Assembly (NCBI GenBank): GCA_040183005.1
Contig: JAMPIW010000004.1
Coordinates: 62,001-126,000, forward strand
Length of the DNA: 64,000 nt
Reading direction: 5' to 3'
Source: Gammaproteobacteria bacterium
GTDB lineage: Bacteria; Pseudomonadota; Gammaproteobacteria; Ga0077554; Ga007554
A program made the translations under genes and the position numbers. The number at the start of each line of letters is the position of its first letter. Position 1 is the stretch's first letter. Shown piece by piece: positions 4,701 to 24,331 of the stretch. Below the pieces are notes generated by a model, which was given only the letters and a program-made list of their open reading frames with translations, had not been told where the DNA came from and ran no database searches.

Positions 4701-6053
4701 ATGTCACAGATCACGCCTTCCAGCAACACCAACCCGAGCAATGCCCAGCTTGAAGACCTGGTGCGCGACATCCTCGCCGAGGCGCGCGCGCAGGGCGCGA
4801 GTGCGGCGGAGGCGGGCGTCAGTCTTGAAACCGGCTTGTCGGTGACGGCGCGTCTGGGTGAGGTGGAAACCATCGAGTATAACCGCGACAAGGGGTTGGG
4901 TGTTACGGTCTATTTTGGCGGGCGCAAGGGTTCGTCGAGCACATCGGACTTCACGCCCGAGGCGGTGCGCGAGGCGGTGCGGGCGGCGTGCAGTATCGCC
5001 AAATATACCGCAGAAGATGAGTATGCGGGCCTGGCCGATGCAGCGCTCATGGCGCGCGAAGTTCCCGATCTTGATCTGTGCCACCCGTGGGGTATCAGCG
5101 CCGAGCAGGCCATCGAGCTGGCAATTGAATGCGAGAATGCAGCGCGCGGCATGGATGTGCGCATCACCAATTCCGAGGGCGGTAGTGTCTCCAGCCACCA
5201 AGGCTACCGGGTGTACGGCAATAGCCACGGCTTCATCGGCGCCTATCCCAGCACACGGCACAGCCTGAGCTGCGCGGTGATTGGCGGGGAGGGTGAGGGG
5301 ATGCAGCGCGACTACTGGTTCACTGTGGCGCGCGACAGCGCGGAGCTGGAGGCGGCGGCGGAGGTGGGGCGGCGTGCCGCGCAACGCACCCTGCGCCGTC
5401 TCGATGCGCGCCGCTTGCCCACCTGCCAGGTCCCGGTGATCTTCGCCGCTGAAATCGCCACCAGCCTGTTGTCGCATTTCACCAGCGCGATACGTGGTGG
5501 CGCGTTGTATCGCAAGGCGACCTTTTTGCTGGATCATTTGGGCAAGCAGATTTTCCCTGCCCATGTTCACATCCACGAACAACCGCATCTGAAACGGGCG
5601 CTGGGCAGCACACCGTTTGATAACGAAGGCGTGGCGACGCAGGCGCGTGACATTGTGCGCGACGGTGTATTGCAGGGCTATATCCTGGACAGCTACGCGG
5701 CGCGCAAACTCGGTATGCAGACCACCGGCAATGCGGGTGGCGTGCATAATTTGATCATTGATCCGGGCGCGCTTGATCTGGATGGATTGCTGCGGCGCAT
5801 GGACAAGGGCTTGCTGGTCACCGAGTTGATGGGGATGGGTGTCAACGCCGTAACCGGCGATTATTCACGCGGCGCGGCGGGCTTCTGGGTGGAAAACGGC
5901 GAGATTCAATATCCCGTTGAGGAGATCACCATCGCCGGGAATCTGCGCGACATGTTCATGCGCATTGTCGAGGTGGGCAACGATGTCGAGATGCGCGGCG
6001 GGACACGCACCGGCTCGATATTGATTGAAGAAATGATGATTGCAGGTGAATAG
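4701..6053 (+). CDS. pmbA: metalloprotease PmbA/TldE
   Basis: 450-residue TldD/TldE family protein. In E. coli, TldD and TldE (PmbA) form a heterodimeric protease that matures microcin B17 and degrades unfolded peptides such as the CcdA antitoxin; TldD carries the metal site. Seen: N-terminal domain with LETGLSVTARLGEVETIEYNR, the GYRVYGNSHGF block, central FAAEIATSLLSHFTSAIRGG, and a C-terminal NAVTGDYSRGAAGFWVENG and RGGTRTGSILIEEMMIAGE end, all typical of PmbA. Start ATG 4701. tldD is not in this window. The stop codon lies 3 bp before the MITE-like element at 6057. Confidence 0.95.
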   Translation: MSQITPSSNTNPSNAQLEDLVRDILAEARAQGASAAEAGVSLETGLSVTARLGEVETIEYNRDKGLGVTVYFGGRKGSSSTSDFTPEAVREAVRAACSIAKYTAEDEYAGLADAALMAREVPDLDLCHPWGISAEQAIELAIECENAARGMDVRITNSEGGSVSSHQGYRVYGNSHGFIGAYPSTRHSLSCAVIGGEGEGMQRDYWFTVARDSAELEAAAEVGRRAAQRTLRRLDARRLPTCQVPVIFAAEIATSLLSHFTSAIRGGALYRKATFLLDHLGKQIFPAHVHIHEQPHLKRALGSTPFDNEGVATQARDIVRDGVLQGYILDSYAARKLGMQTTGNAGGVHNLIIDPGALDLDGLLRRMDKGLLVTELMGMGVNAVTGDYSRGAAGFWVENGEIQYPVEEITIAGNLRDMFMRIVEVGNDVEMRGGTRTGSILIEEMMIAGE

Positions 6054-6056
6054 TTT

Positions 6057-6323
6057 AGAGCCTGTCTGTGAATAAATCATCCCTGCGTTGCCGCCCCAAA
6101 ACGCGCCAGGCATGGCGCGAGCCGCGAAGTTTGGTTGCGCCAAATGAGCGGCGAGCAACGCCGCATGGCGCGTTTTGGGGCGCAACCCGGAGGGACGGGG
6201 CCGGTTTTACGCAGTGCGGCGTCACGCTTCGCTCATGTGCAACAAGCACACTGCACTCAGGCTTCCTTGCCCTGCGTAAAACCGGCTCCCGTCGCAGGGA
6301 TGATTTATTCACAGACAGGCTCT
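6057..6323. mobile_element. MITE-like palindromic element with 31-bp terminal inverted repeats
   Basis: A 267-bp element bounded by perfect 31-bp inverted repeats, 6057-6087 and 6293-6323 (outer ends AGAGCCTGTCTGTGAATAAA and its complement). Taking the repeat from the first G, the trinucleotide TTA flanks both sides, a candidate 3-bp target duplication. Two further hairpins fill the inside: 6092-6108 with 6166-6182 (17 bp perfect) and 6200-6213 with 6273-6286 (14 bp perfect, extendable with a 1-nt bulge). Nearly all of it can fold into a three-way junction. It has no transposase frame, so it would need a transposase in trans. A TNA target is typical of some IS5-family groups, but this assignment is tentative. 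Confidence 0.8.
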
Positions 6324-15030: not shown

Positions 15031-15178
15031 AGCTGGATCCTCCAAATTAAATGTGGCCTAGCATAACAGTAAGAAGGGAAGAGTGGCTAGGAGCCTGGGC
15101 GCAGCAGCGTGTTGCATGCCCTCCGAGCACGCCGTATATTGTGGTCAATAGATAAGGCGCAACGAGCGCGGGGGTTTA

Positions 15179-15622
15179 ATGAAGAGATTGAAATGGCTGG
15201 CGGCGGTTGTGCTCTTGAGCTTCGCCAGGATCGTGGCGGCGGACTCAATCGAATCGCTGAAAGAGTTGGCTGCGCAGGGTGATGCCGCAGCTCAGCTCGG
15301 TGTTGGGGCGATGTATGCCATCGGCCAAGATGTGCCGCAGGATTTTGCCGAGGCCGTGAAGTGGTACCGCAAGGCCGCAGAGCAAGGAAACTCAGGGGGC
15401 CAGTTTAGCCTCGGGTTGATGTATCAAAATGGCCGGGGCGTATCGAAGGACTTCGTTCAGGCGCACAAGTGGCTTAATCTGGCCGCCGCACAGAAATCCG
15501 GCGAATTACAGGAAAAAACCGCAGCCCTGCGCGATGAACTGGCAAATCGCATGCTTCCTGAACAGGTTGCGGAGGCGCAGCGACTGGCGCGGGAGTGGAA
15601 GCCAACGGAGAGTAAGAAGTAG
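15179..15622 (+). CDS. exported Sel1-repeat protein
   Basis: 147 residues. Seen: a signal peptide (MKRLKWLAAVVLLSFARIVAA, cleavage about residue 21), then Sel1-like tetratricopeptide repeats: LKELAAQGDAAAQLGVGAMY, GQDVPQDFAEAVKWYRKAAE and QGNSGGQFSLGLMYQNGRGV, and a half repeat VQAHKWLNLAAAQ, ending in a charged helix. Sel1 repeats are protein-binding scaffolds; a periplasmic adaptor role is inference. Monocistronic. Confidence 0.85.
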   Translation: MKRLKWLAAVVLLSFARIVAADSIESLKELAAQGDAAAQLGVGAMYAIGQDVPQDFAEAVKWYRKAAEQGNSGGQFSLGLMYQNGRGVSKDFVQAHKWLNLAAAQKSGELQEKTAALRDELANRMLPEQVAEAQRLAREWKPTESKK

Positions 15623-15872
15623 CTTGGCTCTATCAGCGCATGTTCCGCATCCATCAGGCATTGCTTCACGGGGAAACGGCTGGTTAAGGAATTGGCGCTG
15701 GCGGGTATCGCCCGATGGTGGCTGTTAATCACTACCTGAAGGATGTATACCAGCCTTTAATCAACGGTTCATGGTGTCGGCGGCAGACACGGGCAGTGCG
15801 TTTGCACTGCTGGTTGATGGTCGCCTGGGTACTCTCTTGCGCGAGCGTTTTGAACGGATGGCTGGATTTTCA
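15623..15872. other. intergenic region, no recognised gene
   Basis: Between the Sel1 gene and the defence-like locus. Short plus-strand frames are present (for example MVSAADTGSAFALLVDGRLG from 15771), interrupted by stops; this may be a decayed gene, but I cannot name it. No repeat or RNA recognised. Confidence 0.35.
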
Positions 15873-15957
15873 CTAAAGACGCCCCAAGCGAAAAAGTTCT
15901 CCAGAGAAACGAACAAGATCTTGCATCTCTCTCGCGTCTTTAATTGCGATAATCATC

Positions 15958-16614
15958 TCACCAGGGGGGGCGAAGGATGGCATGGCTCAGCGGCGGCGAG
16001 GCGTCGTGGCTCGACACAAGAAAGAACCACACGAAACCACCAAACACAAATCGATACGCTATGTGCCCGGCGAGATTTAGCCGCTTGGGCGGCATTATGA
16101 TCTGGGTAAAAGCTTCGTCTTCAACCTTGATGCCAAACATCAAGCATCCATAATGAAATGGGCGGCCTGGGTCTCCTCGCAGCAATAACTGGCGAAGGAT
16201 TTCGGCGTGCTTGCCAAGCCCCACGTTTTCAAAAAACGGAAGACTCGAAACTCCGGCGCGCCATAGCACCGAAAGCTGGAGCAAGCGAAATTTGGCATAG
16301 TCGAGGCCGCCAACATAAACCCGGCTCCCCTCCCGTCGATGGGAAAGCTCCACGCCACCTTTCAGGGCCAAGCTGGCATATCGCTCCCACCCTGAAAATA
16401 ACCCTTCGCACTCTCCACAAAGCAGTGGTTCGTGAACCCCTTTTTGGGCAAGTGAGTTGCTTTGCTCTGGAATACCCGACAGAGCATGAAAGCGATGTTT
16501 GTCATCGTATAACGATTTATACAAGAACTCGGGGATGATGTGCGAATTCATTAGTTTCCGCGGTCGATGGCAAAGCGCGCACGACATGGCAGGCTCTAAC
16601 GATCCGTTTCCCAT
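15958..16614 (-). CDS. zinc-finger/HNH-like 'SHIIPE' protein, probably frameshifted at its end
   Basis: 218 residues as read. Seen: CALCHRPRKLMNSHIIPEFL near residues 12-31, then LLCGECEGLFSGWERYA; the CxxC - SHxIPE - CxxCE pattern resembles a degenerate HNH nuclease or zinc site found in accessory, defence-associated genes. The frame ends in LRPPW directly after a run of seven C on the coding strand (15964-15970). One base fewer would continue as GEMIIAIKDAREMQDLVRFS to a stop at 15873, a plausible natural C-terminus of about 30 residues. So the gene is likely frameshifted, or switches at this tract. Starts 7 bp after the TIR gene. Function is inference. Confidence 0.7.
   Translation of the reverse strand: MGNGSLEPAMSCALCHRPRKLMNSHIIPEFLYKSLYDDKHRFHALSGIPEQSNSLAQKGVHEPLLCGECEGLFSGWERYASLALKGGVELSHRREGSRVYVGGLDYAKFRLLQLSVLWRAGVSSLPFFENVGLGKHAEILRQLLLRGDPGRPFHYGCLMFGIKVEDEAFTQIIMPPKRLNLAGHIAYRFVFGGFVWFFLVSSHDASPPLSHAILRPPW
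15964..15970. repeat. 7-bp G/C homopolymer at the frameshift of the SHIIPE gene
   Basis: Seven consecutive G on the plus strand. A change of one base switches the SHIIPE protein between a 218-residue form and one with a longer, sensible C-terminus. Could be a slippage (phase-variation) tract or a sequencing indel. Confidence 0.55.
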
Positions 16615-16621
16615 CGAGTTC

Positions 16622-17014
16622 TCAGTTCATCGCTTCAAGCAGTTCGCCTACCACCTGCTCCAAGCCTTTGCTCGAAGACGTTGCTAGCCGGTCGGCGAGC
16701 AGGGGCGAATACCGGAGCAGAGTGGCAGCATCGATGTTGTGCCATACCGGGAGAATTACTTTCCGACCATCCATCTCGCGTGCCATCAGCCCATCGAGCT
16801 CCTTCTGCGGCCATTCTTTGTTCAGGAAGGCGGGACTGATAACCACCACTCCGTACCGAGAGCGTGCGAGGCCTCCATCGATGGAACGTCGCAAGCTATC
16901 GCCCACACAAAGCGTGGACTCGTCAAACCACACCCGAAGTTTCCGGTGTTTCAGCTCTTGAGCAAGAGGGCGAGCGAAATCTTCCTTATCCTCTGACGCA
17001 TGGGAGACAAACAC
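16622..17014 (-). CDS. TIR-domain protein (3' open part of a disrupted gene)
   Basis: 130 residues from a GTG at 17014, almost exactly one TIR domain. Seen: FVSHASEDKEDFARPLAQEL (beta-A), VWFDESTLCVGDSLRRSID (box 2 region), GVVVISPAFLNKEWPQKELD with the glutamate that acts in NAD-cleaving TIR domains, and LPVWHNIDAATLLRYSPLLA. Bacterial TIR domains commonly deplete NAD+ to abort phage infection. The GTG follows directly after an in-frame TAG (17018-17020), with upstream coding sequence reading into it, so the native protein was longer. Whether this truncated frame is translated is unknown. Confidence 0.75.
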   Translation of the reverse strand: MFVSHASEDKEDFARPLAQELKHRKLRVWFDESTLCVGDSLRRSIDGGLARSRYGVVVISPAFLNKEWPQKELDGLMAREMDGRKVILPVWHNIDAATLLRYSPLLADRLATSSSKGLEQVVGELLEAMN

Positions 17015-17328
17015 GTCCTATTCAGGATTGGCCGCGTGGAAAGTGGCCGGTTTGGCGTCACTCCTTCTAGGAGATGTCGTGACTCCAAAGCTAGCGCCAG
17101 TTGCACCTGAGATCGCGCCCTGGTCAATCAACCAGTTGTTCACGAATTCCACGTCTTCCGCTGCGGCGCACTGCTCACCGGATACGACTCAATGTTGATG
17201 TCGTACCGAGAAAAAAAGTCGAGCATCTGCGTTCCAGAGAAGCCAGCGCCCCCAGCAAACATCTGGTCCAACTGCTCCTGGATGCGAAGCGGGAGCAGGG
17301 TGTTCCGCACTGGCGAGCTAAGGCTCAT
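17015..17328 (-). pseudogene. N-terminal part of the TIR gene, broken by frameshift and stop codon
   Basis: From ATG 17328 the frame reads RIQEQLDQMFAGGAGFSGTQ, MLDFFSRYDINIESYP and then runs into a stop. From about 17180 a second frame continues GEQCAAAEDVEFVNNWLIDQ, then GATGASFGVTTSPRRSDAKP, reaching a TAG at 17018 whose next codons are DVFVSHASED of the TIR domain. So one gene of about 235 codons carried an N-terminal alpha-helical domain fused to a C-terminal TIR, and now has one frameshift and one nonsense codon. The N-terminal part resembles short N-terminal modules of abortive-infection proteins (AbiJ-type); this is only a visual impression. Confidence 0.65.
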
Positions 17329-17391
17329 ATCGCTTCACCGGATTGGCCCAATTCTATTTCGGCATGATCCACTTTAGCCCTAAGTCAATTC

Positions 17392-17418
17392 AAAAAAAAC
17401 AGGGGCCTACGCCCCCGC
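17392..17418 (-). terminator. Rho-independent terminator of the pyruvate dehydrogenase operon
   Basis: On the minus strand, stem GGGGC - GTAG - GCCCC followed by TG and eight T (complement of A 17392-17399). The stem overlaps the TAG stop codon of the E2-E3 gene. Confidence 0.8.
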
Positions 17419-20400
17419 TTTCCCCGCCACCTTCTGACTCCGCCGCAGTCTCGACAACAACCGCCGCGCCATTTCGCCAAACATTTCAGTTTGGGTGGGG
17501 TGTGGGTGGATGGCGTGCGCGACTTGCTCCAGGGTCATGTTGCCGCTGACCATCATCACCGCTTCGCCGATCAGCGTGTCCGCGTGGTCGGCGAGGAAAT
17601 GCACGCCGATGATGCGGTGGCTGGCCTTGTCGGCGACGATCTTGATCATGCCTTGAGTCTCGGCGGTGATCATGGCTTTGGCGTCGATGCTCATCGGCAT
17701 CTTCACTTCGGCGGCGTCGATGCCCTTGGCCTTGGCTTGCTCCACCGACAGGCCGACGAAGGCGGCCTCGGGGCGGGTGAAGATCACGCCGCAGTCTTTG
17801 TCCTGATCGTATTTGGCGTCCTCGCCCAGGATGTTTGCCGCCGCAACGCGTCCCTGATGGCCGGCGGTGTGGGCGAGCATGTAGCCGCCGATCACATCGC
17901 CTACGGCGAAGATGTGTGGCACGGAGGTACGGCCACGCGCATCGGCCTTGATGACGCTGCCGTCCAGCGCCACGCCGGCGGCTTCCAGCTTGAGCGGGCC
18001 AACCACCGGGCGCTTGCCCGTGGCCATCAGGACGTATTCACAGCCGAGTGACTGGGCACCGCCCTGGTCGTCTTCATAGATGACAGTCATATCACCCGCC
18101 GCGCCCTTGATTTCCTTGATCTTGACCGAGGTGTGAACGGTCAGGCGCGGATCGTCATTGAGGATCGCTGTTAGGTTCTTGGCGATTTCCGGTTCGACTT
18201 CAAACAGGATACGGTCGCGGCCTTCCAGCAGCACCACTTCAGTGCCGAAATCCTGAAAGATTTGCGCCATTTCAAGGCCAATAGCGCCGCCGCCGATGAT
18301 GCCGAGGCGTTTGGGCGCTTTGGTCAGGCCCCACACGGTATCGGATGTCAGTACACCGCCGCTCTTCAGGCCGCTATCGGCCCCCGGAATAGGTGGCACG
18401 AAGGGTGGCGCGCCGGTGGCTATGACTGCACAGCCAAAAGTGATGTGCTCACCCTTGGAGCCGTCACCCAATGGGGCACGGGCATGCGGATCTTTGTTGT
18501 TGCCGGAGGTATCAACAAACAGGCGATGATCGGACTCGAACCAGGCAAAACCCTGGATGACTTTGATCTTCACGCCAGTGTCGGTTTTGAGTGCCATTTC
18601 GCCACGAGTTTCCAACACGTAACGGCGGGTCTTCTCCAGGGCTTCCCAGTTGAGGGTGGCCTTGGTGGTGCCTTCCACGCCCAAGTGTGCGTCATGGGCG
18701 CGGTCGCGGATACGGTCCGCCGCCGCACGCCACGCCTTGGAGGGAATACAGCCGCGCCATAGGCATTCACCACCGGGGAACGGCGAATCGTTAATCATCG
18801 CCACCTTGATGCCATGTTCGGCCAGGTCACGGGCGCAGTCTTCGCCGCCCGGCCCACCGCCGATCACCACCACGTCGTAATCCCAGTTGCCTTCGGGAAT
18901 AGCCGGGCCAACATAGCCGATCCACTCTTCCGGGTGTTCGATATGTTGCTTGAGGGTATTCAAGTACATGGCCGTTTCGGCACCATTGACCACGCGGTGG
19001 TCTGCGGTGATGGTGAGCGGCATACCCTGGTCACCCGCTGTGGCGATGGCCAGGATGGCCGCCGTGCCGGGGGTGGGGATGGCGTCGAAATAACTGACGC
19101 CCAGCATGCCCATATTGGACACCATGAAGGTGGGGTTGGCGTATTCTTCCGGTTTGAGACGGCGTACGCGGGCGCGCGCCACCAGATCCTTCCATGACGC
19201 ATCCAGCTCTTCCAGGCTGCGCGATTCGCAATGGCGCAGCACCGGCACCACCAGGCCGCCGCCATCGGCGGAAACCGCCATGCCGATATCGACAACATCG
19301 CGTTCCACCAGCTTGTCTACCGGCTGGTAGGCCCAATTCATGGTGGGATGCTTCTTCATCGCCAGCGCGCAGGCCTTGGCAATCGCCACGGTGACGGAGA
19401 CGCCCTTTTTCTTGGCGGCCTTGATCAGCGCATCGGGGCGGGCATTGATGGTGACATGGAAGGTCGGCATGGTCAGCGAGGCGGTCATCGACTGGCTTAC
19501 TGCACGCTCCATGGAGGACATGGCCCGGCCATGTCCGGGCACCTGTACTTCTGGCAGAATATGCGCTGCGGGCTGCGCCGCAACTTCTGTGGGACGTTCG
19601 ATGGGCTGGGCGCGCAGTACGTCATCAGCGACGATCACGCTGCCTGCGCCCGTGCCCCGGAGGGTGTTCAAATTCACGTGCAACGCCCCCGCCAGCTTAC
19701 GGGCATAGGGGGTGGCATGCTTGTTGTCGGGTCGGGGTGCGGGCAGGGCGCCAGCCGCCATCTCTGGGGCGCTGACGGGGCGGGAGACCGCCGCCGCAGA
19801 CACCGGAATGGCGGCAGATGCACTTGCAGCAGTAGTAGTTTGCGCAGCGACGCCTGTGACCACTTGTCCCGCCTGCTCCACCAGATAGGCTAACGCACCA
19901 CCCACCGGCACCATGGCGTCCACCGCTGCGAGTGGGCCGGAGAGATAACCTTCACGGAACACCTCAACGTCCATGATCGCCTTGTCGGTCTCAACCTGCG
20001 CGACGATATCGCCGCGCTCGATCTTGTCGCCGGGCGCTTTGCTCCAGCTCACCACCATGCCTTCAGTCATGGTGTCGGAGAGCTGGGGCATTTTGATCAC
20101 GTGCGTCACGCCCGCAGGCTCGTCTGACGCCGCAGGGGCGCTTGGCGTGGGGGTGGCAACGGCGGCTTGGGGGGCAGCAGTTGCAGGGACGTGTGCTTGC
20201 TCAGCAGGCGCCGCCGTGCTTGCGACTCCTTCAGCCGTTGCAACGATATAGGCAATCGCCCCACCTACCGCCACCACGGCGTCCACCGCGGCGAGCGGGC
20301 CGGAGAGATAGCCTTCGCGAAACACCTCGACATCCATGATCGCCTTGTCGGTCTCGACGGTGGCAACGATGTCGCCGCGCTCAATCTTGTCGCCAATCTG

Positions 20401-20478
20401 CTTCTCCCAGCTCACGATGACGCCTTCGGTCATGGTGTCGGAAAGCTGGGGCATTTTTACTGCATAGGGTTCTGCCAT
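17407..20478 (-). CDS. fused dihydrolipoamide acyltransferase (E2) - dihydrolipoamide dehydrogenase (E3)
   Basis: 1023-residue single protein covering two subunits of a 2-oxoacid (pyruvate) dehydrogenase complex. Domains in order: lipoyl domain 1 (about 1-80, lipoyl lysine 45 in VETDKA), Ala/Pro linker, lipoyl domain 2 (about 128-205), linker, E3/E1-binding domain (ATPYARKLAGALHVNLNTLR, about 265-300), acyltransferase domain (about 320-540, MSSMERAVSQSMTASLTMPT ... TADHRVVNGAETAMY), and from about 550 a full flavoprotein E3 (VVIGGGPGGEDCA, redox pair in GGECLWRGCIPSK, second GIIGGGAIGLEMA, C-terminal HPHPTQTE). The two lipoyl domains are nearly identical, suggesting duplication. The acyltransferase motif HxxxDG reads HRVVNG. 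Starts 3 bp after E1beta. Confidence 0.93.
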   Translation of the reverse strand: MAEPYAVKMPQLSDTMTEGVIVSWEKQIGDKIERGDIVATVETDKAIMDVEVFREGYLSGPLAAVDAVVAVGGAIAYIVATAEGVASTAAPAEQAHVPATAAPQAAVATPTPSAPAASDEPAGVTHVIKMPQLSDTMTEGMVVSWSKAPGDKIERGDIVAQVETDKAIMDVEVFREGYLSGPLAAVDAMVPVGGALAYLVEQAGQVVTGVAAQTTTAASASAAIPVSAAAVSRPVSAPEMAAGALPAPRPDNKHATPYARKLAGALHVNLNTLRGTGAGSVIVADDVLRAQPIERPTEVAAQPAAHILPEVQVPGHGRAMSSMERAVSQSMTASLTMPTFHVTINARPDALIKAAKKKGVSVTVAIAKACALAMKKHPTMNWAYQPVDKLVERDVVDIGMAVSADGGGLVVPVLRHCESRSLEELDASWKDLVARARVRRLKPEEYANPTFMVSNMGMLGVSYFDAIPTPGTAAILAIATAGDQGMPLTITADHRVVNGAETAMYLNTLKQHIEHPEEWIGYVGPAIPEGNWDYDVVVIGGGPGGEDCARDLAEHGIKVAMINDSPFPGGECLWRGCIPSKAWRAAADRIRDRAHDAHLGVEGTTKATLNWEALEKTRRYVLETRGEMALKTDTGVKIKVIQGFAWFESDHRLFVDTSGNNKDPHARAPLGDGSKGEHITFGCAVIATGAPPFVPPIPGADSGLKSGGVLTSDTVWGLTKAPKRLGIIGGGAIGLEMAQIFQDFGTEVVLLEGRDRILFEVEPEIAKNLTAILNDDPRLTVHTSVKIKEIKGAAGDMTVIYEDDQGGAQSLGCEYVLMATGKRPVVGPLKLEAAGVALDGSVIKADARGRTSVPHIFAVGDVIGGYMLAHTAGHQGRVAAANILGEDAKYDQDKDCGVIFTRPEAAFVGLSVEQAKAKGIDAAEVKMPMSIDAKAMITAETQGMIKIVADKASHRIIGVHFLADHADTLIGEAVMMVSGNMTLEQVAHAIHPHPTQTEMFGEMARRLLSRLRRSQKVAGKAGA

Positions 20479-24069: not shown

Positions 24070-24331
24070 GGCTAGCAGCTAACTTGTCGGCATGATTGAC
24101 CTGAAAAGCAGGCCAGGGATTTTCAGGCGACTCATGTTCGTTTTCAGGTTGAATATGGTCGCTACACCGCGCGTATACGTATAATACACGTCTCAAAAAT
24201 GTACCAACAACCAGTAAACAACATTGCCCCACCCGTAAAGGGCGCAATGCTTCATTGTCACCCATTGTCCCCTTCACGGGGATTCACGGTGATCACGGGG
24301 AAACAGGCCTGATTTTTCAAGGAACTCGCAA
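24070..24331. promoter_or_regulatory. intergenic region upstream of ridA with small hairpin
   Basis: No gene seen. Contains TATAAT at 24180-24185 without a good -35, and a short hairpin TCCCC-TTCAC-GGGGA at 24268-24282. A related GTCCCC/GGGGAC hairpin lies after ridA, so the gene is bracketed by similar palindromes. Confidence 0.35.

Follow-up and report, generated by a model that had tools for sequence, protein, structure and literature searches.

A damaged gene pair at a genome-specific junction

We describe here two damaged genes encoded on the minus strand at 15873–17328 of the window, the 64,000-nucleotide stretch of gammaproteobacterial DNA that was analysed and to which the coordinates refer. 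When that strand is read directly, a TIR-domain gene carrying two lesions is followed by a gene carrying one, whose product contains the motifs CxxC, SHIIPE and CxxCE in that order (the SHIIPE gene; Table 1), and this arrangement is as an earlier sequence-only reading had described it. All three lesions are read from genome assembly sequence. The TIR gene has no intact open reading frame, being interrupted by a frame switch and a TAG. Its first frame opens with the ATG at 17328 and, after 62 codons, stops at 17140; the second is open from 17182, so that the switch lies somewhere in 17140–17182, where the earlier reading had a frameshift near 17180. The TAG (17020–17018) is also present as reported, but not immediately before the TIR domain. 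Relatives have W, H or Y in the aligned column, the residue preceding DVF/DLF, and the TAG therefore falls inside the first strand of the domain. Between the last base of the TIR stop codon (16622) and the SHIIPE start at 16614, as first read, the gap is 7 bp as reported; homologues support a later start, M10 (16587), and with it the gap would be 34 bp. The SHIIPE frame is lost, as claimed, at a C7 tract (15970–15964).

Table 1. Features of the TIR and SHIIPE locus and of the segment that contains it.
Feature	Coordinates	Strand	Evidence
TIR gene, N-terminal piece (62 aa; premature stop after the frame switch)	17140–17328	-	ORF; ATG at 17328
TIR gene, middle piece (shifted frame; runs to the in-frame TAG at 17020–17018)	17021–17182	-	Open segment, single TAG
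TIR domain, 130-aa ORF from an internal GTG	16622–17014	-	Pfam TIR_2, 1.5e-21; PADLOC PDC-S66, 4e-57; ThsB, 2e-37
SHIIPE gene as first read (218 aa; start at 16587 in homologues)	15958–16614	-	Identity over ~200 aa: 43.6% with L015, 42.4% with L122
Displaced SHIIPE C-terminus beyond the C7 tract (15964–15970)	15873–15961	-	L015 and L122 C-termini align in frame 1
Genus-variable segment, absent from congeners	15102–17402	.	Congener matches end at 15094–15101 and 17403–17413
Sel1-repeat gene inside the genus-variable segment	15179–15622	+	Sel1, 3.9e-21

Three congeners (91–93% identity) match the flanks of the locus up to the limits given in Table 1, with the two flanks on different contigs, and all three are missing the intervening segment, the Sel1-repeat gene included; other genes come after the lpd-type gene in these genomes. 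The separation of the flanks and the missing segment together place the locus at a junction that is special to the present genome. At the same lpd-side junction the congener G401 has a 138-aa ORF with a C-terminal hydrophobic stretch (L076:5112–5528), which suggests a variable spot. G401 also joins position 24072 directly to 51166 (L076:12636/12690), and the approximately 27 kb between these positions is thus a genus-variable insert in the present genome. Beside the locus, 17407–20478 encodes a 1023-aa fusion of lipoyl domains, an acyltransferase part (E2) and dihydrolipoamide dehydrogenase (E3), with the domains named by reading, and this gene is kept in the congeners.

The TIR gene and the SHIIPE family

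At the level of sequence the identity of the TIR domain is certain. It matches Pfam TIR_2 with 77.6 bits (E 1.5e-21; cutoff 28), the PADLOC family PDC-S66 with 191.8 bits (4e-57; profile positions 151–279 of 282) and one PADLOC ThsB profile at 2e-37. The gene belongs to the PDC-S66 family, a known candidate for single-gene phage defence with the same TIR domain, but it departs from that family in being broken and in its N-terminus of about 100 aa, which does not match the first ~140 positions of the profile (1–141); when the TIR frames are joined, only residues 97–233 align, to profile positions 142–279. Searches of Pfam, PADLOC, viral contigs, 369 genomes from the class and 72,556 plasmid records likewise give no match to the N-terminal ~100 aa, so that the helical module proposed earlier for this region is only a guess. 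Partner regions that differ are usual among TIR effectors. The relatives here (~50% identity) carry other partner regions, either N- or C-terminal, and those compared share the TIR domain alone, with the same N-terminus in none. Similarity to some ThsB profiles recalls Thoeris, but neither ThsA nor another Thoeris partner is adjacent, the neighbours being the SHIIPE and Sel1-repeat genes and housekeeping genes of lpd and bfr type, and the SHIIPE protein, considered as such a partner, matches no PADLOC family. Because the 130-aa ORF begins at an internal GTG beyond the TAG, the start of the first strand is missing, and this ORF probably does not encode a functional TIR protein.

The SHIIPE gene is a member of a family of its own, solo and patchy in distribution, whose proteins are ~245 aa long and share a CxxC...HIIP...CxxC core. 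The protein here matches no family in Pfam, NCBIfam or PADLOC, and its homologues have no convincing match in Pfam or NCBIfam. Homologues are present in about 2–3% of the sampled genomes (10/398 in the phylum and 10/369 in the class, both counts including the present genome), and further ones come from a close-relative scan of an 85,000-species collection (two), a viral contig (one) and a plasmid (one). The phage and E. coli collections yielded none, and no TIR gene is annotated next to the single plasmid relative. In an alignment of 11 sequences the invariant residues are those of two CxxC pairs, a single W, and H and P within HIIP.

The order of CxxC, HIIP and CxxC recalls the layout of HNH and treble-clef proteins (Pfam HNH_5 and kin), and the core resembles a zinc site of the treble-clef or HNH-like type. 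However, no HNH model matches the protein encoded here, and the best match for a homologue is one to HNH_5 at E 0.49. An AlphaFold model of the family, built from 3 sequences, has a mean pLDDT of 53.9 and no PDB match at E < 1, and with a weak fold model and no solved structure matched, membership in the HNH group is not established. A sequence-profile search of the PDB returned only weak hits, to a reticulocyte-binding protein (E 0.002), and these were judged spurious.

Among the homologous loci, L012 carries the SHIIPE gene (5439–6167) as cargo between tape-measure-like and tail genes on the phage contig IMGVR_UViG_3300037786_000006. Going by names assigned from reading the sequences, some family members have neighbours of a defence- or toxin-antitoxin-like kind: in L009 a methyltransferase-like gene together with a regulator of the ImmA/IrrE type, in L126 a possible FRG-domain gene, and in L005 and L008 RelE-like toxins.

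Gene decay and assembly error

Two intact SHIIPE homologues (L015 and L122) show what the C7 tract has displaced. Beyond the tract, frame 1 (GEMIIAIKDAREMQDLVRFSGELFRLGRL) continues the C-terminus of the family, with an equal score in one of 2000 shuffles against L015 and in none of 2000 against L122, and the other frames do not align to the C-termini of these two homologues. The frameshift is thus real relative to the family, as two intact proteins that are 42–44% identical match the shifted frame. Only the last ~27 residues are lost, so that the product may or may not still be functional.

The lesions could instead be assembly errors, with both genes intact in the organism. In favour of this, one lesion is at a C7 homopolymer, a common site of error, and the TIR frame switch has a T7 run upstream of it (17217–17211). 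Against it, we compared gene continuity between 800 kb of congener sequence and 442 kb of the present genome: 97 of the 99 congener genes with enough coverage are continuous, and the two that are split, one of them mutually, are both local (the reverse comparison gives 76 continuous genes and 3 split). Three errors within 1.46 kb would be exceptional by comparison, and a nonsense substitution is atypical of such errors. Errors of assembly are consequently an unlikely source of all this damage, and the decay that had been proposed for the locus is well supported by the density and kind of its lesions.

Adjacency of the TIR and SHIIPE genes

The sequence-only reading had also proposed that intact homologues of the two genes could form a new two-gene defence unit, and a check for recurrence of the gene pair among homologues was set beforehand. 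A TIR profile search finds no TIR neighbour at any of 21 SHIIPE loci outside the present genome, and a SHIIPE profile search finds no SHIIPE neighbour at any of 27 TIR loci, where many of the compared loci have flanks of only 1.5 kb, a few end at contig ends, and no TIR relative has the N-terminus seen here. The two genes are thus rarely adjacent among these relatives, the outcome named beforehand as speaking against the pair, and a recurrent unit is not supported. SHIIPE relatives are usually solo and in varied, unrelated contexts; the three closest, all lacking a TIR neighbour, are beside a repeat protein (L015), an efflux operon (L016) and dnaQ/grxD-like genes (L122), as named by reading. 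At the level of titles and abstracts, the literature on TIR plus HNH two-gene anti-phage systems offers no obvious match. Since the relatives of each gene are not neighbours elsewhere, the pair here looks to be an ordinary, one-off decayed remnant.

A real but rare two-gene unit, in which a TIR NADase and an HNH-like partner have decayed at this locus, would account for genes on the same strand spaced 7–34 bp apart, for a TIR gene within a candidate defence family, and for damage to both genes, which might also follow if a true pair had lost its function. The absence of the partner from every SHIIPE and TIR locus compared, L015, L016 and L122 included, nonetheless makes such a unit improbable, and we hold it very unlikely that a rare defence pair has intact members beyond the sampled genomes, in which the SHIIPE protein would cleave or sense nucleic acid in partnership with the TIR NADase. 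Least credible is a phase-variable locus, as had also been suggested, with the C7 tract or some other repeat in control. The tract is located at the SHIIPE frameshift, but it is ordinary in a genome where 442 kb contain 21 tracts of C7 or G7, and longer tracts as well, and it alters only the end of the SHIIPE protein. In the TIR gene, the frame switch has no homopolymer at its site, and the nonsense codon could not be reversed by a tract of any length.

We therefore favor, as the likely explanation, a decaying remnant, specific to this strain, where two independent genes adjoin by chance. The remnant would have been placed at a genome rearrangement junction, with acquisition of a TIR-effector gene that joined an unrelated N-terminal region to a C-terminal TIR domain. 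While intact, this gene would most likely have acted alone, its PDC-S66-like product depleting NAD+ in abortive infection, and it would later have been inactivated by the frameshift and the nonsense codon that are both visible in the assembly. The adjoining SHIIPE gene belongs to its independent solo family and has lost its C-terminal residues through the C7 frameshift, and its adjacency to the TIR gene is probably incidental.

The pair is accordingly struck off as a candidate for a new two-gene defence unit, and the two genes are most likely chance neighbours in a segment that is strain-specific and decaying. The SHIIPE family itself keeps a modest interest, being conserved, without a match in Pfam, NCBIfam or PADLOC, and wide but patchy in its spread.
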